Below the pieces are notes generated by a model. It saw nothing but the letters and a program-made list of their open reading frames with translations, did not search any database and was not told the origin of the DNA. The position numbers and the translations under genes are program-made. 64,000 nucleotides of DNA from Planctomycetota bacterium (GTDB lineage: Bacteria; Planctomycetota; Planctomycetia; Planctomycetales; Planctomycetaceae). Below are positions 31,846-42,277 of the stretch, one piece after another. Positions within the stretch are counted from its first letter, which is position 1. Each line of letters opens with the position of its first letter. Where the stretch lies: contig QQVO01000019.1 in assembly GCA_003388505.1 (NCBI GenBank), positions 62,001-126,000 of the forward strand, written 5' to 3'.

Positions 31846-33375
31846 ATGATGCGATGCGCTCCCTCCCTGTTTTTTTCTTTGGTCTGCGTTTGGCTGACGA
31901 CGTTTGCAGCATCTGCGGAAGCCGCGCGCCCGAATGTTGTGATTATCCTCGCGGACGACATGGGCTACGGCGACGTCCGGGCGCTGAATCCCGAGTCGGT
32001 GATTGCGACGCCGCATCTGGATCGGATTGCGGCTGAAGGGATGACGTTCACCGACGGGCATTCACCGTCCGCGGTCTGTACGCCGACGCGGTATGGGTTG
32101 CTGACCGGGCGGTATTGTTGGCGGACGAGTCTGAAGAGCGGTGTGCTGGGGGGATACAGTCCGCCGTTGATCGAGGCAGATCGACTGACGCTGGCCGGGA
32201 TGTTGCAGGAGCACGGCTACCGGACCGGCGCAGTCGGGAAGTGGCATCTGGGCATGGCGCTGCCGTTTCTGGATCCCGACAATGCCGATACGTCCCCTTG
32301 GGACGGCGACCCGGGGATCGATTTCGCCGGGGTGATCAGCGATAGCCCGGTTCATCACGGGTTCGGCAGCTACTTCGGGGTGAGCGCGTCGCTCGATATG
32401 GCGCCGTTTGTCTATATCCGGGACGACCGGTTCACGGCGCTGCCGACGATTCAGCAACCGATGGTGAAGTTCCCGCACTTTGTGCGAAAAGGACCTCGTG
32501 CGGAGGATTTCATCATCGACGAAGTGCTCGACCGGCTGACGGAAGAGGCCGTGCAGTTCGTCGAAGAGGCGGCGGAGGGGGAGCAGCCGTTCTTTCTGTA
32601 CATGCCGCTCACCGCGCCGCATAAGCCGACACAGCCGCATGAGCGGTTTCGCGGCAAGACCGGACGCGGCGAGTACGGCGACTTCGTCGCACAGGTCGAC
32701 TGGACGGTGGGACAGGTGCTGGAGGCTCTGGACCAGACGGAGACGGCCGACGACACGTTATTGGTCTACACGTCGGACAACGGCTCGTACATGTTCCGCT
32801 TCGATGACGAATCGCGGAAGGACCACGTGGACGATGCGACGATCCAGGGGTTTCGCGCGGGCCGTCACCGGGCGAACGGGCCGTTCCGGGGGACGAAGGC
32901 CGACATCTGGGAGGCGGGTCATCACGTGCCGCTCCTGGTCCGCTGGCCGGGGAACGTGGAGGCCGGTTCGTCGTGTGACGAAGCGGTGTGTCTCACCGAT
33001 CTGTTCGCGACGGTCGCCGAGATCGTTGGGGTGGATATTGACAACAGCGTGGCCGAGGACAGCTTCTCATTGGCGTCGATGCTGGCCGGTGAGCAGGTCG
33101 AGCGGGGCGCGCCGGTCGTCCATCATTCGGTGGGCGGGATGTTCGCGATCCGGGACGGGAAGTGGAAACTGGTGCTCGGGAATGGCTCCGGCGGACGGGA
33201 GCAGCCTCGCGGGAAGCCGTTCGAGAAGCCGTATCAGTTGTTCGATCTATCGAGCGATATCAGTGAGGAGTCGGATGTGGCGGATGCCCATCCGGAGGTC
33301 GTCGAGCGGTTGACGCAGCGGCTGGAGGAGATTCGCAAGCGGGGGAGGAGTGTTGAGCGGGAAAACCCCAGATAG
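31846..33375 (+). CDS. secreted arylsulfatase-type sulfatase
   Basis: A 509-residue protein with a signal peptide (1-25, ending ASAEA). The sulfatase opening PNVVIILADDMGYGD supplies two metal-binding Asp residues. C78 in VCTPTRYGLLTGRYCW is the Cys of the C-x-P-x-R motif that is oxidised to formylglycine. The later SDNGS segment supplies further metal ligands, and the end of the protein reads DLSSDISEESDVA. Planctomycetes carry many such enzymes for sulfated polysaccharides; the exact substrate cannot be told. It stands alone, with no maturation factor beside it. Confidence 0.93.
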   Translation: MMRCAPSLFFSLVCVWLTTFAASAEAARPNVVIILADDMGYGDVRALNPESVIATPHLDRIAAEGMTFTDGHSPSAVCTPTRYGLLTGRYCWRTSLKSGVLGGYSPPLIEADRLTLAGMLQEHGYRTGAVGKWHLGMALPFLDPDNADTSPWDGDPGIDFAGVISDSPVHHGFGSYFGVSASLDMAPFVYIRDDRFTALPTIQQPMVKFPHFVRKGPRAEDFIIDEVLDRLTEEAVQFVEEAAEGEQPFFLYMPLTAPHKPTQPHERFRGKTGRGEYGDFVAQVDWTVGQVLEALDQTETADDTLLVYTSDNGSYMFRFDDESRKDHVDDATIQGFRAGRHRANGPFRGTKADIWEAGHHVPLLVRWPGNVEAGSSCDEAVCLTDLFATVAEIVGVDIDNSVAEDSFSLASMLAGEQVERGAPVVHHSVGGMFAIRDGKWKLVLGNGSGGREQPRGKPFEKPYQLFDLSSDISEESDVADAHPEVVERLTQRLEEIRKRGRSVERENPR

Positions 33376-33443: not shown

Positions 33444-35069
33444 TCATTCTTCGTCCGCCGCTTCCTCCGGTTTCCGCCAGGCATGTTCCGGGCGTGCGAG
33501 GATTTCGTCGATGACGGCGTTGACCGCGTCCGCCTGTTCCTGCTTGCCCTCCTTGGCCGCGTGCGCGGCGATCTCGCGGGCCTGCGGAATCAATTCGATG
33601 TAGAAGCGCTCGGCCACCTCGTACATTCCGTGCCAATGGGAGTAATCGGGCGCCATCATCGAGGCGCCGTGGCGAGCCCGCCGGCCCTCGTGATGCCAGA
33701 GGTAGAACCAGGTCCACTCGATCTCTTCGTCGAACTGGGTACTCGTGATCAGTTCCTGCTTTCCGAGTTCCGCCATGATGGCCTGGCCGGGCTTGGCGAA
33801 CTTCTCGTTATAGAGCACCACAAAGTCGTCGTATTGCTTGTAGAAGGAGTTGACGTAATCGTTCGTGTGGCAGTGCAGGCAGACCTGCTTCATGTTCATT
33901 CTCTTTTGCTCGGCTGTATGAACAACCAGTTCGCGGCGGACGTCCGGGTCGGTCTCGGTGACGATTTTGCCTTCGGCGTCGGTGTCGAGCCACGCGCTGA
34001 CCGGCGGACGGTTGGACCAGGAGATTCTCTGGCCGGCGTCGTGCGTGACGGTCGGCGTGCCCTGCCTCGAGTGGGCCGACATGTGGCAGGTGGCGCAGGT
34101 GGGCGCCTGGGTGTAGTCCTGACCCAGCACCCAGTTTTCGGCATCCAGATTCATGTGTTCCTTCAGATCACGGAAGGCGACGCCGTGCTTGGACTCTTCG
34201 TAGATCTCCTTCTGCGGGTGATCCGGGCCGAGGTGGCACTTGCCGCAGTTCTCCGGCTGTCGGGCGCGGCGGGGTGAGAAGTCGTGCCGGCTGTGACAGG
34301 CGGAGCAGGAGCCGAGCGAACCATCCAGATTGATGCGTCCGATCCCGGTGTTGGGCCAGGTGCCCGGGTGGAACTTCGGTCGTCCGTCCTCGTCCTTCTC
34401 CAGCTTGTCGAGTACGGCGAGGTTTGTGGGTTTGCCCGATTCATCCGGTTTGAGATCGTCCACGGTGATCGCCGTGCCGTCGGTTGCGAGCAGTCCCACT
34501 TTGCTGCCGTGACATTGCTGGCATCCGACAAAGGCGCTGGCCATGCCGTTGACTTCGTCGATCTCGGGACGTCCCGGCGTCGGCGAATGCGGGTTGAAGA
34601 AGTGCCGTCCTCCCTCATCGGCACGGAATCCCTCCACCTCCTCGGCGAGGAAGTTGTCCAGCGAAGCGAGAATATTGCCCCCCTTGGCGTGGTGGCTACC
34701 CTCGAATTCCTGGTACTCCTTGGGATGGCAACGAGAGCAGTCCAGGGGGGTCACCACAGTGGCAATGACCGCGTCGTAGTGGGTGAAGGCGTCGACGTCG
34801 TCCGGGTCGGCGCGATGGCAGTCCACGCAGCCGACTCCCTTTTGCGCGTGCGTGCTGTCCTCCCAATGATCGACGATTCCGGGAGACTGCTGCGGCTGCC
34901 CGTGGCAGGTCACGCATGACTGGGAACTGGCCGGCACGATGACGTGGGCCGCTGCCAGCCCCGCCTGTTCGCGCCGGTGCGCGACTTCCAATGCCTGCAC
35001 GAGGACCAGCGAGAGCATGAACAGCAGGCCGAGCAGGCCGATCACAGTGCGTTTCGTTCGAAGTTGCAT
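33444..35069 (-). CDS. octahaem cytochrome c, HAO-like, membrane anchored
   Basis: A 541-residue protein with an N-terminal membrane segment (7-27) and exactly eight CxxCH sites: C52, C81, C111, C183, C255, C275, C325 and C397. The C-terminal part is the hydroxylamine oxidoreductase-family end: WHHEGRRARHGASMMAPDYSHWHG, with Y476 in the region where HAO has its haem-crosslinking Tyr, and a long helix to the end. It is the last gene of an operon with a Rieske protein and a cytochrome b, and probably takes the place of cytochrome c1/f as electron acceptor of that complex. Catalytic hydroxylamine or nitrite chemistry is possible but not shown. Confidence 0.88.
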   Translation of the reverse strand: MQLRTKRTVIGLLGLLFMLSLVLVQALEVAHRREQAGLAAAHVIVPASSQSCVTCHGQPQQSPGIVDHWEDSTHAQKGVGCVDCHRADPDDVDAFTHYDAVIATVVTPLDCSRCHPKEYQEFEGSHHAKGGNILASLDNFLAEEVEGFRADEGGRHFFNPHSPTPGRPEIDEVNGMASAFVGCQQCHGSKVGLLATDGTAITVDDLKPDESGKPTNLAVLDKLEKDEDGRPKFHPGTWPNTGIGRINLDGSLGSCSACHSRHDFSPRRARQPENCGKCHLGPDHPQKEIYEESKHGVAFRDLKEHMNLDAENWVLGQDYTQAPTCATCHMSAHSRQGTPTVTHDAGQRISWSNRPPVSAWLDTDAEGKIVTETDPDVRRELVVHTAEQKRMNMKQVCLHCHTNDYVNSFYKQYDDFVVLYNEKFAKPGQAIMAELGKQELITSTQFDEEIEWTWFYLWHHEGRRARHGASMMAPDYSHWHGMYEVAERFYIELIPQAREIAAHAAKEGKQEQADAVNAVIDEILARPEHAWRKPEEAADEE

Positions 35070-35139
35070 GATGGTCTATGGCGGATGGCTAATGGCAAAT
35101 GGTTAGCGGGCGGAAACTGAAGACCCACGTCGAACGGTC

Positions 35140-36189
35140 TCAGTGTGGAACGAGCGCCTCCCAGGTGGTCAGGGCGACGAGCAGAAAGACGCCGACGATT
35201 CCGATCCAGACGCTGATCTCCTCGATGCGCGTCACTCGGCGGAGGAGCGTGTCGATGAACGGCCACGTGAACATCACGAACACGATGAATCCCATGCTGA
35301 GCACGGCGAACGTCCCGGAGAAGAGTTTGAGCCACCGGAACGTGGCGTAGAAAAACCATTCCGGCTTGATGACCTCGGGGGTCGTCAGCGGATCTGCACG
35401 GGGGCCCATGATCGCGGGAAACACGGTTGCGAGCACGCTGAGCAGGATCATCAAGACCAGGCCGATGATGAGTTCGGTGTAGAAGTGATCGGGGAAGAAG
35501 TCGTAGTGACCCGGGCCGTCGTCCGTCTCGTCCTCGAATTTGAGTTCGGACACGCCGTGCATGCGGATCAGCGCGATGTGGACGACGAGCAACAGGATCA
35601 TCGTGGCGGGCAGAATGGCCGCGTGCAGGATGTAGAACCGCGGCACGGTGTTCTCGTTGTACTCGTCGCCGGCCAGCAAAAGTTGTTTTGCGAGGCGTCC
35701 CACGAAAGGAATCATGTCACAGATGTTCGCGGCGACGGTAGCGCCCCAGTAACTCAACTGCTCGAACACGAGGCTGTAGCCGGTAAAGCCGATCAGCAGC
35801 GTGCACAGCAGCAGGCACATGCCGATCATCCAGTTGATCTCGCGCGGCCGCCTGTACGCACCGGTGAAGTAGACGCGCATCTGGTGAAGGATCACCGAAG
35901 CGATCATCAGCGTGGCGGCCCACTTGTGCACGCTCCGGATGTACCAGCCGTAGTTGACCTCTTCGGTAATGCGGCGAACCGACTCGTACGCGGTTTCCGG
36001 AGAGGGCTGGTAATAGACCGCCAGCAGAATGCCGGTGACGATCTGCACGACGAACAGGTAGGCCGGCGTCCCGCCCAGGCAGAACCACCAGCGCCGGAGA
36101 TGGTTGGGCACGGGCTCGTTCGTCACTTCGGCGAGTTCGACGCCGCTGACGGGAATCCGCTCCTGAATCCAGTTCCTGACTCCATTCAT
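35140..36189 (-). CDS. cytochrome b, b6-type fused with subunit IV-like part
   Basis: A 349-residue quinol-oxidising membrane subunit. Haem ligands are H88, H102, H189 and H204; 14 residues separate the second pair, as in b6 rather than mitochondrial-type cytochrome b. C37 in WWFCLGG aligns with the Cys that covalently holds haem cn in b6f complexes. The quinol-site motif is PEWF (276-279). The C-terminal region (about 235-345) supplies three further TMs, like subunit IV, in the same chain. It lies between the Rieske and octahaem genes (gaps 90 and 70 nt). Confidence 0.93.
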   Translation of the reverse strand: MNGVRNWIQERIPVSGVELAEVTNEPVPNHLRRWWFCLGGTPAYLFVVQIVTGILLAVYYQPSPETAYESVRRITEEVNYGWYIRSVHKWAATLMIASVILHQMRVYFTGAYRRPREINWMIGMCLLLCTLLIGFTGYSLVFEQLSYWGATVAANICDMIPFVGRLAKQLLLAGDEYNENTVPRFYILHAAILPATMILLLVVHIALIRMHGVSELKFEDETDDGPGHYDFFPDHFYTELIIGLVLMILLSVLATVFPAIMGPRADPLTTPEVIKPEWFFYATFRWLKLFSGTFAVLSMGFIVFVMFTWPFIDTLLRRVTRIEEISVWIGIVGVFLLVALTTWEALVPH

Positions 36190-36279
36190 GGATCGGTCAA
36201 TGGCTGTTCGTGAAGTCCGATGAATGGGGGGTGTCGATGACCGGGTGCCGACCCGGGACCGACGACGCTTGCGGGTGAT

Positions 36280-36807
36280 TCAAGCCAGTCGATCCGTCCC
36301 TGCCTGGATGAAAAGCAGGTTGTTTTCGACCTTGAGTGGAAACTGCGGCAGGGGTTGATTGTCGTCCTTCGGGGGCCCGGAGAGGGGCTGTCCCGCCGCG
36401 TCGAACGCCCCGTTGTGACAGGGACAGAAAAACCGATCGTTCTGTGACTCCCAGTGTACCTGGCAACCGAGATGCGGGCAGATGCTGGACAAGGCAACAA
36501 AGTCGCCCGCGTTCCCATCGTCCTTCAACCGGGAGATGACGACCTGCTGCCCCCTGGGCGAGCGGAACAGGAGCGACTGCCCGACCGGAAACCCGCCGAG
36601 ATCGGTAACGAACTGCCAGACGCCGGAGAAATCGCGGTTCGGATAGAGAAACCGGCCGATGAGTGCGGCAAACATGCCGTAGCCCGCGGCCAGCCCGGAG
36701 ACCATCAGAAATGATGCGAAGCGACCGAGGACGCGCCGACGCCCCGTCCGGTCTGCATTCTCCGCAGCGGAAAGATCAGTGTGCGCGTCCTGCGCTTCGT
36801 CCGGCAT
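36280..36807 (-). CDS. Rieske 2Fe-2S protein of a cytochrome b complex
   Basis: A 175-residue protein. A basic RRR precedes a single membrane segment at about 30-52, as in Tat-inserted Rieske proteins. The cluster-binding boxes are CPHLGC (C110, H112, C115) and CPCHNGAFD (C128, C130, H131), each with the usual structural second Cys. It is the first gene of the Rieske/cytochrome b/octahaem operon. ATG 36807 is preferred, with GGGAAG upstream; a TTG at 36840 would add 11 residues. Confidence 0.9.
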   Translation of the reverse strand: MPDEAQDAHTDLSAAENADRTGRRRVLGRFASFLMVSGLAAGYGMFAALIGRFLYPNRDFSGVWQFVTDLGGFPVGQSLLFRSPRGQQVVISRLKDDGNAGDFVALSSICPHLGCQVHWESQNDRFFCPCHNGAFDAAGQPLSGPPKDDNQPLPQFPLKVENNLLFIQAGTDRLA

Positions 36808-37405
36808 CTGTGTGGGCTTCCCGAAACGGAATCGATCCAAGCGCTTGTTGGGTCAAGCGACGGCCCGTCGTTTGCCAACGTGATGCGTCAGGCGAGATCA
36901 CCGCGATGCGACCGCATCGACTCACAGTGAACAGCCCGATACATCATTCTCACCGGGAATGTGCATGTGGTAATCCATCGCTCTGAGAATGACAAGGCAA
37001 GATGAACGCCGGAAGCGGCGCTCCGTATCGACGCTCCCGTTCGAGTTGCGTGTACGCAATCCGACTTCGCCGGGCGACCGCAGCATGTGATCGATTACTT
37101 CGATCCGATGCCGGAACTTGTCTGAGCGGCAGGCGTCAGCGCGCGAGCGGCCTCATTGACGCCGGCGATCGGCAGTGCTGTCGCCGCGTTCGCGGCTCGG
37201 GATCGATGGGTGGGCTTGGGCGCCATGAGCTTACGCTCACGGCTATATGCTGGCGCGGCTACGCCGCTTAACGAGGCGCTGCTCCCTGACACCCATGGTG
37301 TTACTGGCTCGCGTGGGTGCGCCGCTGATGGTTGACGCGGGGACTTTTGCGCTGGTGCGCGATATACTGCGCTGCGTCGATCCTCCATCTCGAAGGGACC
37401 CCATC
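36808..37405. other. divergent intergenic region with a dispersed 45-nt repeat
   Basis: About 600 nt without a supported gene, between two divergent genes, so promoters of both should lie here. It contains a repeat at 37223-37267 (begins CCATGAGCTTACGCTCACGG) that recurs inverted at 47815-47859 with 42 of 45 positions equal. No clear operator or sigma-54 site was seen. Confidence 0.6.
37223..37267 (+). repeat. 45-nt dispersed repeat, copy 1
   Basis: Contains an internal near-palindrome (GAGCTTACGCTC) and ends GGCGCGGCTACGCCGC, itself a small hairpin. The inverted second copy is at 47815-47859. Confidence 0.7.
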
Positions 37406-38770
<1,365 letters not shown>

Positions 38771-38857: not shown

Positions 38858-38910
38858 ACAGGAGACGATGATGGGACCGGGCAGAACCGGTGCTCAGGAT
38901 CGGGCCTCTT

Positions 38911-39489
38911 ATGTCACATCGCAAGCAGATCAAGCACCACCACGAGCCGGGGCACCTTCACGAATTCACTTTCTCGACCTGTTGCCGAAGGCCGTTACTC
39001 ACGAATGACACTTGGAGAGAAAAACTGGCCGCAACGCTCGACGTCTCGAATCGGGAGTTTCGGTTTCAACTCGTGGCGTTCGTGTTCATGCCCGAACATC
39101 TTCATCTCCTGACATATCCTCTGGATGAGCGGCCGCGGTTCGGAGAGTACCTCGCTCACATCAAGCAGCCTTTTTCGAAACAGATCAAAGAGATTCTGGT
39201 CGAAAGCCATTCCCGGTTGCTTGAGCAACTCACCGTTCAAGAACGTCCGGGCAAATCCTGCTTTCGATTCTGGCAGGAAGGTCCCGGCTACGACCGCAAC
39301 ATCACGTCGCACAATGCGATTGTCAGCGCAATTGAATACATCCACGAAAACCCTCTCCGTCGCGGACTGTGCAGAAGGGCGGTCGACTGGAAATGGTCTT
39401 CGGCTCGGTATTACCTGAACGTTCCGCCCCGACAACAGGAAGCGAACCTGCCGTTCATTCACGGCCTGCCGGACGGTGCACTCGATTAG
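38911..39489 (+). CDS. REP-associated tyrosine transposase-like protein (RAYT, IS200 superfamily)
   Basis: A 192-residue Y1 transposase-like protein. The HUH metal-binding motif is H63-L64-H65 in FMPEHLHLL. The catalytic region is FRFWQEGPGYDRNI and YIHENPLRRGL, the conserved RAYT C-terminal block. RAYTs are single-copy, domesticated relatives of IS200/IS605 TnpA that bind and cut REP palindromes. Here the gene is flanked by inverted palindromes 54 nt upstream and 11 nt downstream. Start ATG 38911 is preferred over GTG 38890. There is no tnpB. Confidence 0.88.
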   Translation: MSHRKQIKHHHEPGHLHEFTFSTCCRRPLLTNDTWREKLAATLDVSNREFRFQLVAFVFMPEHLHLLTYPLDERPRFGEYLAHIKQPFSKQIKEILVESHSRLLEQLTVQERPGKSCFRFWQEGPGYDRNITSHNAIVSAIEYIHENPLRRGLCRRAVDWKWSSARYYLNVPPRQQEANLPFIHGLPDGALD

Positions 39490-39549: not shown

Positions 39550-39897
39550 TCACAGTAACTCGTTGACGTTCTCCGGCGGGCGCCCAAGCACGGCGCGGTT
39601 GCCTTTGACGACGATCGGGCGTTCGATGAGCTTGGGGTTCTCGACCATGATCCTGATCGCCTCCTTGCGCGACAGTTCTTTATCACCCAGGCCGAGTTCC
39701 TTGTAGACGGCTTCGCCTTTGCGCATCAGTTCTTGCGGTTCGAGGCCGAGCATCTTCAGCAGGCCGTCGAGTTCCTTCTGTGTCGGCGGGGTCTGCAGGT
39801 ACTCGATGACTTCCGTTTCTTCGCCGGCGTCACGGATGAGTTCGAGCGTCTGCCGGCTCTTGGAACAGCGCGGGTTGTGGTAGATGCGGATGGTCAT
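39550..39897 (-). CDS. arsC: arsenate reductase, glutaredoxin type
   Basis: A 115-residue ArsC-family protein: IYHNPRCSKSRQTLEL with the active C11, then VIEYLQTPPT and the RPIVVKGNRAVLGRPPE box that supplies the Arg residues for arsenate binding. It reduces As(V) to As(III) using glutathione/glutaredoxin. No ars operon is linked, so a function as an Spx/YffB-like member is an alternative. It is 22 nt downstream of the MOSC gene on the same strand. Confidence 0.9.
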   Translation of the reverse strand: MTIRIYHNPRCSKSRQTLELIRDAGEETEVIEYLQTPPTQKELDGLLKMLGLEPQELMRKGEAVYKELGLGDKELSRKEAIRIMVENPKLIERPIVVKGNRAVLGRPPENVNELL

Positions 39898-39919
39898 TGG
39901 TCGTCGGGGCAGGGCGATT

Positions 39920-40471
39920 TCAATCGGAGAGTTTGCGAACGGTCTGGCCGACTTCGATACGGCCGGGCTGGGTGACGCGGGCGTAGATGCCGCGGAGGTT
40001 GAGTTCGCGTCCGACGTCTGAGTTGACCCAGAGCATGGCGTCTCGCCCGAAACGTTCGATGAACTTACGGCAGCCTGTGTGAGGCTCGGCGGTGATCTCG
40101 ATGACGGCTTCGCCGATGGCGAGTCGCGTGCCGGGGGGAAGGTTCTCAGTGGAGAGATCGAGGTCGAGATAGAGTTGGTCTCCGGCGAGTTTCCAGCGGT
40201 CGCGCTCCTGGGCGATGAGCGCGATCGTGCGGGAGTTCATCAGCGTGAGCTGAGTTTCGACGCGAGGTGGGTCGCCGGACGACGCCGCGCCGTTGGGATT
40301 CCAGCAGTCGCCGGCGAGGCCTTCGGCATCGTTCAATTCGCCGGTCTGGAGTTCTTCGCGCCGTTCCGATTGTGGTCGCCGAACGATTGAGTCGAGACGC
40401 CCGGAGTCCTGTGGGGACTGGCGGATCTGGTCGAGGCCGGCGTTGAGTTCGTCGGTGTTGAGGTGCTGCAT
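39920..40471 (-). CDS. MOSC domain protein
   Basis: A 183-residue single MOSC domain protein. The conserved Cys is in EPHTGCRKFIERFG; earlier features are ELQTGELNDAEGLAGD and the beta strands around LSTENLPPGTRLAIG. MOSC proteins act on molybdenum cofactor or on sulfur transfer (YiiM/mARC-like, 6-N-hydroxylaminopurine resistance). It likely shares a transcript with the arsC-like gene. Confidence 0.88.
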   Translation of the reverse strand: MQHLNTDELNAGLDQIRQSPQDSGRLDSIVRRPQSERREELQTGELNDAEGLAGDCWNPNGAASSGDPPRVETQLTLMNSRTIALIAQERDRWKLAGDQLYLDLDLSTENLPPGTRLAIGEAVIEITAEPHTGCRKFIERFGRDAMLWVNSDVGRELNLRGIYARVTQPGRIEVGQTVRKLSD

Positions 40472-40711
40472 GCGGATTGCGTTGTCGTGTTGTCGGCTTG
40501 GGAATGGTCCCGAATCTATGAAGGAGCTTTCGCCTCGGAAACCATACTCGGCGATCGTCGCCGGCCAATGTAGCCGACTCGCGAATCGGTTGGCACTCGT
40601 TCACGCGCGTGCCCCAGAATCGCGAGCGCGAGTAAATCGTGGTTGGGAGAGAAACCGGGCCTCTTGCTTTCGACGTGCGCACATGCGACTCGCGGAGCGA
40701 GTCGCCAACGG

Positions 40712-41902
40712 TCAATGCCGCAGCACCCGGCGGAGGAGCAGGTAGCCGGCGAAGGCGAGGGCGGCGTTGCCGATCCACATGGCCCACATGGGGTCGACGT
40801 GGCCCTTCTTGGACTGGGCCATCATGCCGAGGACGAGCGGGTAGTAACCGGTCGTGATGGGGACGAAACAGTAGAGGAAGCTGGTAAGAAAGCGGGCCTT
40901 GGCCTTGAGGACGGCCAGCGGCGCGCCGACCAGCACGAAGAACAGACAGCTACAGGCCATTGCGTAGCGGCTGTGAATCTCGGTGTGCATGCGGTCGGTT
41001 CGTTCGTCGATATCGGCGAGCAGCCGCTTGCGGCGGCTCTTGGGATCGATGAGGGTTTCAAACTTGCCCTGCGTCATGGCAAAGGCGGCTTCAATGGCCA
41101 TGCGTTCGTCGGCCCGCGTCTTTTCGAGAGCGACCGCATCCAGTTCGCGGTTGATCTGCCGAATCGGGAGGTGCCGGGGCTGCGTCTCGTTCTTGGAAGA
41201 CCTCCAGCCAATCCTGCGGGTCTCTTCGCGGTTGATGTAGATCTTCTGCCGATTCGGCAATTCGATCGTTCCCCGACTCAATGTCACGAGAATCTCGTCG
41301 TTTTCGGGATCGAGGCGGATTGTGGCTTCGTCGGCCCACATCGTGGCCGCCTGGCTGTCGCCGCGCTGGTACTGGAAGACAGGACGCTTAAGGACGCGTC
41401 CTTCGACCGATTCGACCGTTACGTGGAGCCCACTGCGGCGGTCGCCGAACTGGCGTTCGGTCCTGAGCCGGTCGAGAACGATTTCCTCCATCGCCTCGAC
41501 GACGGTTCTCTGGATGTTTCCGACGGCCCAGGGAATCGCCTGATCGATGAGGATGAGGCTGAAGGCGCTTAGTGCGGCGCCGATGACGAAAGACGGCCAG
41601 AGCAGCGAACTGACGCTGATGCCGGCCGCTTTGGCGGCGGTAATTTCCAGGTCGCCGGCGAGTCGCCCGTAGACGATGGAGACGGTGAGGAGCAGCGCGG
41701 CGGGGATCGTGAAGGGGAGGAGACTGGGGACGATGTAGGGCAGGATGCGGATGAGCTGCATCGGCCCCAGGCCGCTCTGACTGGCCTGCTGGAAGACGCC
41801 GACGAAGATCAGCAGGACGGTGAGACAAAGCACGACGAACGTGAAAATCCGCAGCACTTCGGCAAAGACGTATCGCTGCAAGAGTGGGATCTGGAATCTC
41901 AT
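40712..41902 (-). CDS. LptF/LptG family permease
   Basis: A 396-residue inner-membrane protein: three N-terminal TMs (LLQRYVFAEVLRIFTFVVLC at the start, then 50-75 and 95-118), a large periplasmic domain (about 130-300) and three C-terminal TMs, the fold of LptF/LptG. These form the lipopolysaccharide extraction ABC permease with LptB. Only one of the pair is encoded here. ATG 41902 is preferred to GTG 41911. The presence of Lpt permeases fits a Gram-negative-type outer membrane. Confidence 0.85.
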   Translation of the reverse strand: MRFQIPLLQRYVFAEVLRIFTFVVLCLTVLLIFVGVFQQASQSGLGPMQLIRILPYIVPSLLPFTIPAALLLTVSIVYGRLAGDLEITAAKAAGISVSSLLWPSFVIGAALSAFSLILIDQAIPWAVGNIQRTVVEAMEEIVLDRLRTERQFGDRRSGLHVTVESVEGRVLKRPVFQYQRGDSQAATMWADEATIRLDPENDEILVTLSRGTIELPNRQKIYINREETRRIGWRSSKNETQPRHLPIRQINRELDAVALEKTRADERMAIEAAFAMTQGKFETLIDPKSRRKRLLADIDERTDRMHTEIHSRYAMACSCLFFVLVGAPLAVLKAKARFLTSFLYCFVPITTGYYPLVLGMMAQSKKGHVDPMWAMWIGNAALAFAGYLLLRRVLRH

Positions 41903-42277
41903 ACGTCTCACGCCGATGGCACGGTTCGATCGCGAGGGGCCTGATACGCGACGGCGCGGATCTCGTCAATACGACTGCCGCGCCGGAAAGCTGGGGAAAC
42001 TAGGGGGATTTGGAGGGATGTTCGCGATGGTCCCGGTCAGCAGGCAGAGGTTGCCGGTTCGGAGCGGACGTCAGAACTGGCAAGCTTTCCCCCAAGAGCA
42101 CGCCGTTCTGAATACGGCGAATTCCGCCGCTTCGGGAACCGGTGCCGATGGAGGAGTGCGGGGCGGTGGTCGAAGATGAAGAACAGGTTGGTCCCCCCGG
42201 GACCGGCGGCGGGTTCGCGATGATGCGGATGGTCGATCGGACAGGAAATCGAATGTGGGACAGAAAGGCGCAATCGC
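41903..42277. other. gap between lptF/G-like gene and small membrane protein
   Basis: About 375 nt in a divergent arrangement. I see no gene, terminator or strong repeat in it; a purine-rich AAAGG lies upstream of the ATG at 42278. Confidence 0.5.

Follow-up and report, generated by a model that had tools for sequence, protein, structure and literature searches.

A conserved Rieske/cytochrome b operon with an HAO-family octahaem cytochrome c in a planctomycete and its relatives: a candidate quinol:nitrite oxidoreductase

Positions 33,444 to 36,807 of a 64,000-nucleotide stretch of DNA from a Planctomycetota bacterium (assembly GCA_003388505.1, contig QQVO01000019.1; the whole stretch is called the window below) encode a Rieske protein, a cytochrome b and an octahaem cytochrome c (OCC) of the HAO family. 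The three genes constitute a real and conserved module, apparently a dedicated one. The reading favoured here, and held with moderate confidence, is that the Rieske/cytochrome b (R/b) pair forms a dedicated complex from which electrons leave through an HAO-family octahaem reductase, so that the system would work as a quinol:nitrite oxidoreductase with a Q-cycle. This putative function is well supported by gene context in relatives, whereas we infer the physical complex, direct transfer from Rieske to OCC, the type of quinone, the Q-cycle, the substrate and the product.

The Three Genes as a Conserved Unit

All three reading frames are open and follow one another head to tail on the minus strand in the order Rieske, cytochrome b, OCC (Table 1), with 90 bases between the first two and 70 between the last two. 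The initial annotation had described three adjacent reverse-strand genes in this order, and its coordinates agree with those found here. A pattern scan of GTDB genomes yielded 224 stretches encoding relatives, of which the best 80, 66–79% identical, were kept. By record organism, 62 of these belong to Planctomycetota, nine to Acidobacteriota, three to Gemmatimonadota and one each to Myxococcota and Pseudomonadota, with four unassigned; most come from metagenome-assembled genomes (MAGs), whose taxon labels may err, and they are not independent, as L078 and L081 stem from one MAG and L081 and L084 look alike in a gene-by-gene comparison. Among the 80 loci, cytochrome b stands directly upstream of OCC in 76 of the 77 with enough flank, and Rieske is found upstream in 66 of 68; the exceptions are L033, which is devoid of the pair, and L108, where cytochrome b is matched in part and Rieske not at all. 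This conservation of gene order is far beyond chance.

The distribution of the genes among 59 related genomes follows the same pattern. Eleven were counted as OCC genomes (OCC of at least 70% identity, plus G041 at 48%), and five with a distant OCC of 30–33% identity (G001, G032, G046, G050 and G052) were placed among the other 48. An orthologous cytochrome b, defined by a cut-off of at least 58% identity that was fixed after the results were seen, occurs in 10 of the 11 OCC genomes and in none of the 48 (p = 2e-10). The three proteins have also diverged in parallel: over the 86 of 106 loci in which all three are nearly full length, pairwise distances correlate at 0.91 (OCC–cytochrome b), 0.77 (OCC–Rieske) and 0.83 (cytochrome b–Rieske), against permutation maxima of 0.42, 0.29 and 0.23, respectively, although shared ancestry contributes to these values. 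The proposal of the initial annotation, that OCC takes the place where a c1 or f subunit would be expected and that the three genes are one functional unit, is thus borne out by conserved order, a dedicated cytochrome b and correlated divergence.

It could be argued that the R/b pair supplies a general pool of cytochrome c and that its adjacency to OCC reflects co-regulation only. Variable spacing, with a cytochrome b–OCC gap that reaches ~940 bases in some loci, and one genome that carries OCC and NapAB but not the pair would be compatible with this. However, the cytochrome b orthologue was never found without OCC in the 59 genomes, and the genome of the window harbors two other cytochrome b loci and an alternative-complex-III-like cluster, which leaves this explanation very improbable. 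That genome (98.8% complete, with a single OCC match) seems to hold several quinol-oxidising complexes, judging from their sequences; because it has these other R/b and alternative-complex-III-like clusters, the operon looks like an extra, specialised branch. The other complexes are named here from their sequences and are putative. One cluster (L226/L232, contig C15:37500-53000) combines a second Rieske protein, a b6-type cytochrome b and a subunit-IV-like protein with a stop-to-stop open reading frame (ORF) of 1598 codons that contains eight CxxCH motifs; its Rieske protein, unlike that of the window, has Ser in the cluster box (CPCHGSGFY). Another (L227, C32) has a Rieske-like gene and an ORF for a cytochrome b with two CxxCH, and a third (L228, C43) shows an NrfD match within an alternative-complex-III-like cluster, beside an oxidase-subunit-like gene. 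Matches of ~40–47% to b6-type cytochrome b are found in many of the 59 relatives.

The Octahaem Cytochrome as a Putative Reductase

OCC has exactly eight CxxCH motifs, at residues 52, 81, 111, 183, 255, 275, 325 and 397, and eight are present in all 81 core OCC rows. Its PF13447 (Multi-haem_cyto) score is 73.9 bits against a curated cut-off of 21.9. In a profile search the nearest structures were 4qo5 (1.4e-55), which we take to be the octahaem cytochrome from Ignicoccus hospitalis, Kustc0457/Kustc0458 (6h5l, 4.2e-34) and Nitrosomonas HAO (1fgj, 4.1e-23). Both the eight-CxxCH cytochrome and the HAO C-terminal block reported by the initial annotation are therefore real by motif count and alignments. 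Kinship with tetrathionate or nitrite reductases, which the same annotation had named as a result that would tell against its proposal, was not found: the matches are to the HAO family, NrfA (1qdb) is only a weak partial phmmer match (E = 0.0054), and phmmer against the PDB, at E up to 10, returned no chain labelled OTR, ONR or MccA. Structural comparison of an AlphaFold2 model by VIA-align gives mild support, as the top six matches are HAO-family chains (Z 7.7–10.0), with a weak model and a root-mean-square deviation of 18.9 for the best row; the NrfA, ONR and MccA rows have Z values of at most 4.3, a low rank that excludes nothing. A PDB search with the C-terminal third alone was discarded, since it retrieved mostly unrelated repeat and designed proteins. 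The mean majority fraction in alignment A1 is 0.68 for residues 1–35, 0.67 for residues 141–235 and 0.88 for residues 236–360, and the hydrophobic N-terminal segment is modelled as a helix spanning residues 3–35, with a predicted local distance difference test score (pLDDT) of 84–94 over residues 1–30.

The Asp283-His284 pair aligns with Asp267 and His268 of HAO, which we take to be its catalytic pair, and is kept in all 81 core rows as well as in every sister row (10 linked to NrfCD, 2 to NapC, 9 divergent R/b forms, 8 solitary, 5 solitary anammox and 13 short OCCs). This invariance suggests that OCC is an enzyme rather than a wire. The opposite view, that OCC is a conduit to metals, to extracellular acceptors of other kinds or to a soluble carrier and has no nitrogen-oxide chemistry of its own, draws on the combination of a multihaem cytochrome with a quinol oxidiser and on the outer-membrane protein cluster that lies near the operon in 7 of 81 loci (L038, L043, L062, L066, L094, L096 and L104; the L094 member matches PF13372, alginate export). 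Given the invariant Asp/His pair and the NapAB, Hcp and globin genes near some loci, it is regarded as improbable.

The residue at the cross-link position points to a reductase. In HAO, Tyr467 is presumably the residue cross-linked to haem P460, and the mixed profile A3, which, unlike A1, aligned this region to HAO, places His480 of OCC in its column. That column holds His in all 81 core rows, all 12 further core loci and eight of nine divergent R/b rows. Absence of the cross-linking tyrosine is said to separate the reducing from the oxidising members of the family (Hanson et al., PMC3701875), and since His480 replaces it, OCC would be of the reducing type. Accordingly, by alignment the protein does not fit the oxidative HAO/HOX/hydrazine dehydrogenase type, and its score with the hydrazine dehydrogenase model NF052343 is 56.7, far below the curated 900. 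That OCC instead oxidises hydroxylamine or nitric oxide (NO) and, like HAO, passes electrons to the quinone pool or into a bc route would agree with its family and its Asp/His pair, but the invariant His480, the hydrazine dehydrogenase score and the NapA neighbours all speak against it, and even with an invariant Tyr476 four residues away this is the most improbable of the explanations considered.

Rieske Protein and Cytochrome b

The hallmarks of an R/b complex are all present, namely the Rieske cluster boxes, four haem-b histidines and a PEWx motif at the Qo site. The Rieske protein has one hydrophobic helix at about residues 32–51, preceded by an arginine-rich stretch (hydropathy). In its second cluster box, Gly and Phe stand at the positions of the Ser and Tyr of high-potential Rieske proteins, and both of these hydrogen-bond donors are missing in 95 of 95 aligned copies. 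In yeast, their loss is reported to cost ~130 mV (Ser) and ~65 mV (Tyr) (PMC12954380). The absence of both donors suggests a low-potential cluster, and a lower-potential Rieske protein would fit menaquinol. Prediction from these residues can fail, and Kustd1480 is a warning, being described with +335 mV in spite of lacking the Tyr (PMC12954380).

Cytochrome b comprises a b6-like four-helix part fused in one chain to a partial subunit-IV-like region, and its best PDB match is cytochrome b6 (1q90_B, 5e-53). The haem-b ligands are H88/H102 and H189/H204, with 13 and 14 residues between them, and the latter value confirms the b6-type spacing noted in the initial annotation; the four histidines are kept in 96 of 96 aligned copies (106 loci supplied), and the Qo motif is PEWF in the window. 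Cys37 aligns with the b6 cysteine that we take to hold haem cn (ci). The suggestion of a haem-cn cysteine thus stands for the protein of the window, but it is not general, the column holding Cys in 67, Ala in 26 and Ser in three of the 96 copies. Because the residue is Ala or Ser in 29 of them, haem cn would not be essential to the system.

Nitrite as the Likely Substrate

The substrate has to be sought in the genes that accompany OCC in relatives. Of the 69 testable loci, 20 have NapA at most 2.5 kb downstream of OCC and on the strand of OCC, in every case with a NapB-like multihaem protein after it. The cut-offs of TIGR01706 and NF010055 are both passed by the NapA of L069, and the other core NapAs were found by tblastn. 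At the level of genomes, NapA or NarG is found in 6 of 11 OCC genomes and 5 of the 48 others (p = 0.003), NapA alone in 4 and 5 (p = 0.05) and NarG alone in 4 and 1 (p = 0.003); the cut-offs for NapA (at least 45% identity, E below 1e-115) and NrfA (E below 1e-80) were fixed after the results were seen.

The second line of evidence comes from sister OCCs, which are 36–48% identical to that of the window where measured and keep the Asp/His pair and His480 while their partners differ. Ten of them (L157, L158, L160, L181, L186–L188 and L192–L194) are accompanied by an NrfD-type membrane protein; nine of these loci also match 4Fe-4S and tetrahaem queries, L188 ending at a contig edge, and NapA is nearby in six. 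Pfam assignments cover the proteins of L157 and L158 and, in L160, NapA. In L158, L160, L186, L187 and L192, a tetrahaem cytochrome, a 4Fe-4S protein, NrfD, OCC and NapA share one cluster, an NrfBCD-like donor with an HAO-family octahaem. A NapC/NirT cytochrome stands beside the sister OCCs L155 and L156, and also beside those on plasmids of Desulfobaculum bizertense and Desulfosarcina ovata, at 36–37% identity; no NapC match was obtained in the 80 core loci. On the D. ovata plasmid, Do28_1 (L217, typed mobilizable), NapC/NirT and the octahaem lie next to norR and a gene for nitric-oxide reductase. NapAB also accompanies divergent R/b forms, namely those of L182, L183 and L163, in the last of which NapB matches PF03892. 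NrfD-type and NapC/NirT donors are known from respiratory nitrite reductases. OCC, often together with Nap, would therefore pair with three known kinds of quinol-oxidising module, as would be expected for a respiratory nitrite reductase, and the company of NrfD-type or NapC/NirT donors suggests a terminal-reductase role; the R/b version would be the proton-motive one.

Since NapA follows OCC in 20 of 69 loci and sister OCCs are found with NrfCD or NapC modules, nitrite is the likely substrate. The initial annotation had proposed a quinol:multihaem oxidoreductase acting on nitrogen or metal; nitrogen is the best reading of the two, and the metal alternative gained no support, metal-reduction genes not having been searched for specifically. 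It has also to be considered that the same complex exists and that its octahaem mainly detoxifies or scavenges NO or hydroxylamine, without nitrite respiration. Within the 80 loci Hcp occurs in three, protoglobin in five and globin in seven, Rrf2-type regulators are matched in nine and seven by two queries, and searches for NapA and NarG found no nitrate reductase in the genome of the window. Nevertheless, a dedicated R/b pair would exceed what detoxification needs, NapAB is adjacent in the 20 loci mentioned, and the alternative quinol modules of sister OCCs are of the respiratory kind, so that a detoxifying role is considered unlikely.

Phylogeny of the Octahaem and the Anammox Comparison

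Of 156 OCC rows, 18 were dropped at 90% identity or more. Five ORFs were not counted as OCC (L074_1, L168_0, L168_1, L184_0 and L184_2), and L164 and L212 gave no usable ORF. An earlier tree included 26 of the L030–L109 rows. The final tree of 69 rows, 24 of them R/b-linked, omits L184_3 (a stray ORF also left out of the residue-column counts), L214, L165, L151, L144 and L142. It separates 59 rows, among them the window, from ten anammox rows with support of 100/100. The ten include the R/b-linked L147 and L172, taken as kuste4574-like by their neighbours (a hexahaem protein, a subunit-IV-like protein and a b6-like cytochrome b). Grouping all R/b-linked OCCs in one clade is rejected, with a log-likelihood 517 lower and an approximately unbiased (AU) test p of 1.2e-86, and anammox descent of the operon is supported neither by the tree nor by the AU test. 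By contrast, a clade of the 24 non-anammox R/b-linked rows, as against the NrfCD/NapC-linked rows and four of the anammox rows, is not rejected (p = 0.52), and a single origin of the non-anammox R/b–OCC pairing is possible. The pairing of R/b with an HAO-family octahaem is thus present in two distinct lineages and probably arose twice, although it may also be ancient and have been lost later. The analogy with the Kuenenia R/b complexes drawn in the initial annotation consequently stands as one of design and is not supported as one of close kinship: in the octahaem phylogeny that it had called for, the R/b-linked anammox OCCs fall across the 100/100 split, in another clade (AU p 1e-86).

Two further groups deserve mention. 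Anammox-type genomes G268, G144, G323 and G127 (L176–L180) carry an HAO-like set plus a stand-alone OCC inside the clade of the window. Short OCCs, most of ~410–440 amino acids, are encoded in L137–L143, L162, L166, L167 and L169–L171; they have Phe in the Tyr476 column and Asp in the Tyr319 column, each in 12 of 13 rows, and R/b, NrfD and NapC queries gave no match in L162, L166, L167 and L169–L171.

Evidence Against, and the Proposed Mechanism

A number of observations weigh against a dedicated nitrite-reducing complex. As to the substrate, no nitrogen-oxide gene is found among the six scanned genes that flank the operon of the window, and NapA is adjacent in only 20 of 69 testable loci. The genome of the window shows no NapA at E 1e-60, no NarG at 1e-20 and no NrfA over the cut-off. 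NrfA is found in 0 of 11 OCC genomes and 12 of the 48 others, where a p of 0.10 makes avoidance suggestive only; in five of the 11 (G006, G015, G020, G029 and G035), short multihaem matches narrowly exceed the Pfam cut-off for NrfA, some of them only with their neighbours in frame, and these were judged not to be NrfA. As to the unit, some OCCs of the same clade stand alone: L161, L185, L189–L191, L197, L199 and L201, besides the anammox-type L176–L180, are solitary within the fetched stretches. In G026 (97% complete), contig C353 (L231/L033) carries OCC, NapA and a NapB-like gene in a row without an upstream R/b pair, and no orthologous cytochrome b was found in that genome. As to the chemistry, the invariant Tyr476 stands four residues from His480, and both anammox R/b-linked rows, L147 and L172, have Tyr in the cross-link column; as nitrite reduction is proposed for kuste4574 (PMC8862662), the tyrosine rule may not hold absolutely. 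Finally, the AlphaFold2 model of OCC (A1, 30 rows) is poor, with a mean pLDDT of 67.5 and much of residues 261–358 below 50.

With these points taken into account, the quinol:nitrite oxidoreductase is still the preferred reading, and its mechanism can be sketched as follows. Menaquinol would be oxidised at the Qo site. One electron would pass through the low-potential Rieske cluster to OCC, and the second through the haems b, probably with haem cn in this protein, to the Qi site, protons being moved by a Q-cycle. The electron exit would then be an HAO-family octahaem reductase in place of cytochrome c1 or f. Held to the membrane by its N-terminal helix, OCC would deliver electrons to a catalytic haem devoid of the tyrosine cross-link and reduce nitrite, most likely to ammonium, possibly with release of some hydroxylamine or NO. 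A bolder version can be advanced only tentatively. It holds that this is a single membrane complex in which Rieske docks on an octahaem that is acceptor and enzyme at once, without c1, f or a soluble carrier, and that the nitrite step conserves energy through the Q-cycle. Such a complex would be distinct from the anammox R/b complexes, spread over genomes labelled Planctomycetota, Acidobacteriota and Gemmatimonadota, and overlooked by nrfA/onr surveys.

To our knowledge, the nitrite step of nitrate ammonification by the NrfH/NrfA and NapC routes is usually taken as not coupled to proton movement. If the proposal is true, nitrite reduction in these bacteria would be proton-motive, unlike in those routes, and two distinct lineages would have joined R/b complexes to HAO-family reductases. 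The operon would also provide a candidate nitrite reductase for planctomycetes without nrfA, a strong NrfA match being present in none of the 11 OCC genomes among the 59, and a census based on nrfA and onr (PMC10716430) may undercount such ammonifiers.

Surroundings of the Operon

The genes on either side of the operon are transcribed in the opposite direction, a sulfatase gene converging on OCC and an oxidoreductase gene diverging from Rieske (Table 1). Upstream of the operon there are also a Y1-type (IS200-like) transposase family gene at 38890-39489 and ArsC-like, MOSC and LptF/LptG genes at 39550-41911. No cytochrome c1 or f subunit is encoded among the scanned neighbours, where OCC occupies that place and one elsewhere in the genome is possible; neither a separate subunit IV nor an extra multihaem cytochrome c lies beside the operon, and no NAD(P) oxidoreductase module is present among the scanned neighbouring genes. 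A simple consensus scan gave one terminator-like site, on the opposite strand, and no promoter-like site, which says little.

Table 1. Features of the operon and its flanking genes (positions in the window)
Feature	Coordinates	Strand	Basis or remark
Rieske [2Fe-2S] protein, 175 aa	36280..36807	-	PF00355 1.3e-11; start ATG 36807, alternative TTG 36840
Rieske cluster box 1 CPHLGC, residues 110-115	36463..36480	-	Sequence; kept in 93/95 aligned copies
Rieske cluster box 2 CPCHNGAFD, residues 128-136	36400..36426	-	Sequence
Cytochrome b, 349 aa	35140..36189	-	PF00033 1e-51; C-terminal domain PF00032 1.5e-8
Cys37 of cytochrome b	36079..36081	-	Aligns with b6 cysteine near its start
OCC, octahaem HAO-family cytochrome c, 541 aa	33444..35069	-	PF13447 1.7e-20
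OCC hydrophobic N-terminal helix, ~residues 8-28	34986..35048	-	Hydropathy; membrane anchor or uncleaved signal
OCC Asp283-His284	34218..34223	-	Aligns with HAO Asp267-His268 (1fgj)
OCC His480	33630..33632	-	Column of HAO cross-linking Tyr467 (6m0p Tyr491, taken as mature 467)
Sulfatase	31846..33375	+	Converges on OCC
GFO/IDH/MocA oxidoreductase	37247..38770	+	Diverges from Rieske

Comparison with Known Systems

In the open-access literature, no description of this operon was found for Planctomycetota, Acidobacteriota or Gemmatimonadota; papers behind subscription, among them Dibrova et al. 2013 (cited by PMC5317091), lay outside this scope. In a paper on Phycisphaerae, a Hao model was used and brought up Onr-like octahaems, and the word Rieske is absent from its main text (PMC11266412). 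PMC10732223 lists hao in several MAGs of Planctomycetota and R/b genes in some of Phycisphaerae; one MAG of that study, OFTM22, holds the nearest relative of the operon, L030. The ammonifier census screened nrfA and onr, and in it HAO and IhOCC figure only as distant homologues (PMC10716430).

The closest solved structure to OCC by sequence is the Ignicoccus hospitalis octahaem 4qo5, which differs in having Val at the position of HAO His268, and we know of no link between it and an R/b pair. OCC resembles the octahaem of the reverse-HURM or epsilon-Hao type in its missing cross-link tyrosine. In Nautilia profundicola, a reverse-HURM (NapAB, HaoA, the NapC-like CycB and Hcp) is described in which a Tyr-less HAO-family octahaem acts as nitrite reductase, tied to Nap and quinol; the quinol module is there a tetrahaem protein of the NapC type (PMC3701875), whereas the window has an R/b pair.

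Kuenenia R/b-3 (kuste4569-4574) is a parallel case, with R/b genes, an HAO-like octahaem and nitrite as the proposed substrate (PMC12954380, PMC8862662). It is reported to differ in its split b6 and subunit IV, its extra multihaem subunit and its NAD(P) module, and its Rieske protein, Kuste4569, has both Ser and Tyr, which the protein of the window lacks, and a potential of +303 mV (PMC12954380). The Kuenenia-type loci L147 and L172 depart from the window likewise, in the clade of their OCC, in the cross-link Tyr and in the split b6/subunit IV layout.

The same three-gene order is already known in Caldithrix abyssi, where Rieske (Cabys_2558), cytochrome b (Cabys_2557) and an epsilon-Hao octahaem (Cabys_2556) follow one another by locus-tag number; the octahaem is said to be without the tyrosine ligand and to lie beside NapA, and its authors already suggest transfer from the R/b pair to NapM or directly to the octahaem (PMC5317091). 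In that description, the pair is part of a Nap cluster (NapM, NapG and NapH), and its partner is left open (PMC5317091). In the window, likened to Caldithrix by gene order and description, the operon has no Nap gene next to it and the pair accompanies OCC. This bears on which of the two, Nap or the octahaem, the Caldithrix pair works for: of the 69 testable loci studied here, 49 have no adjacent NapA, and the pair is nearly always present.

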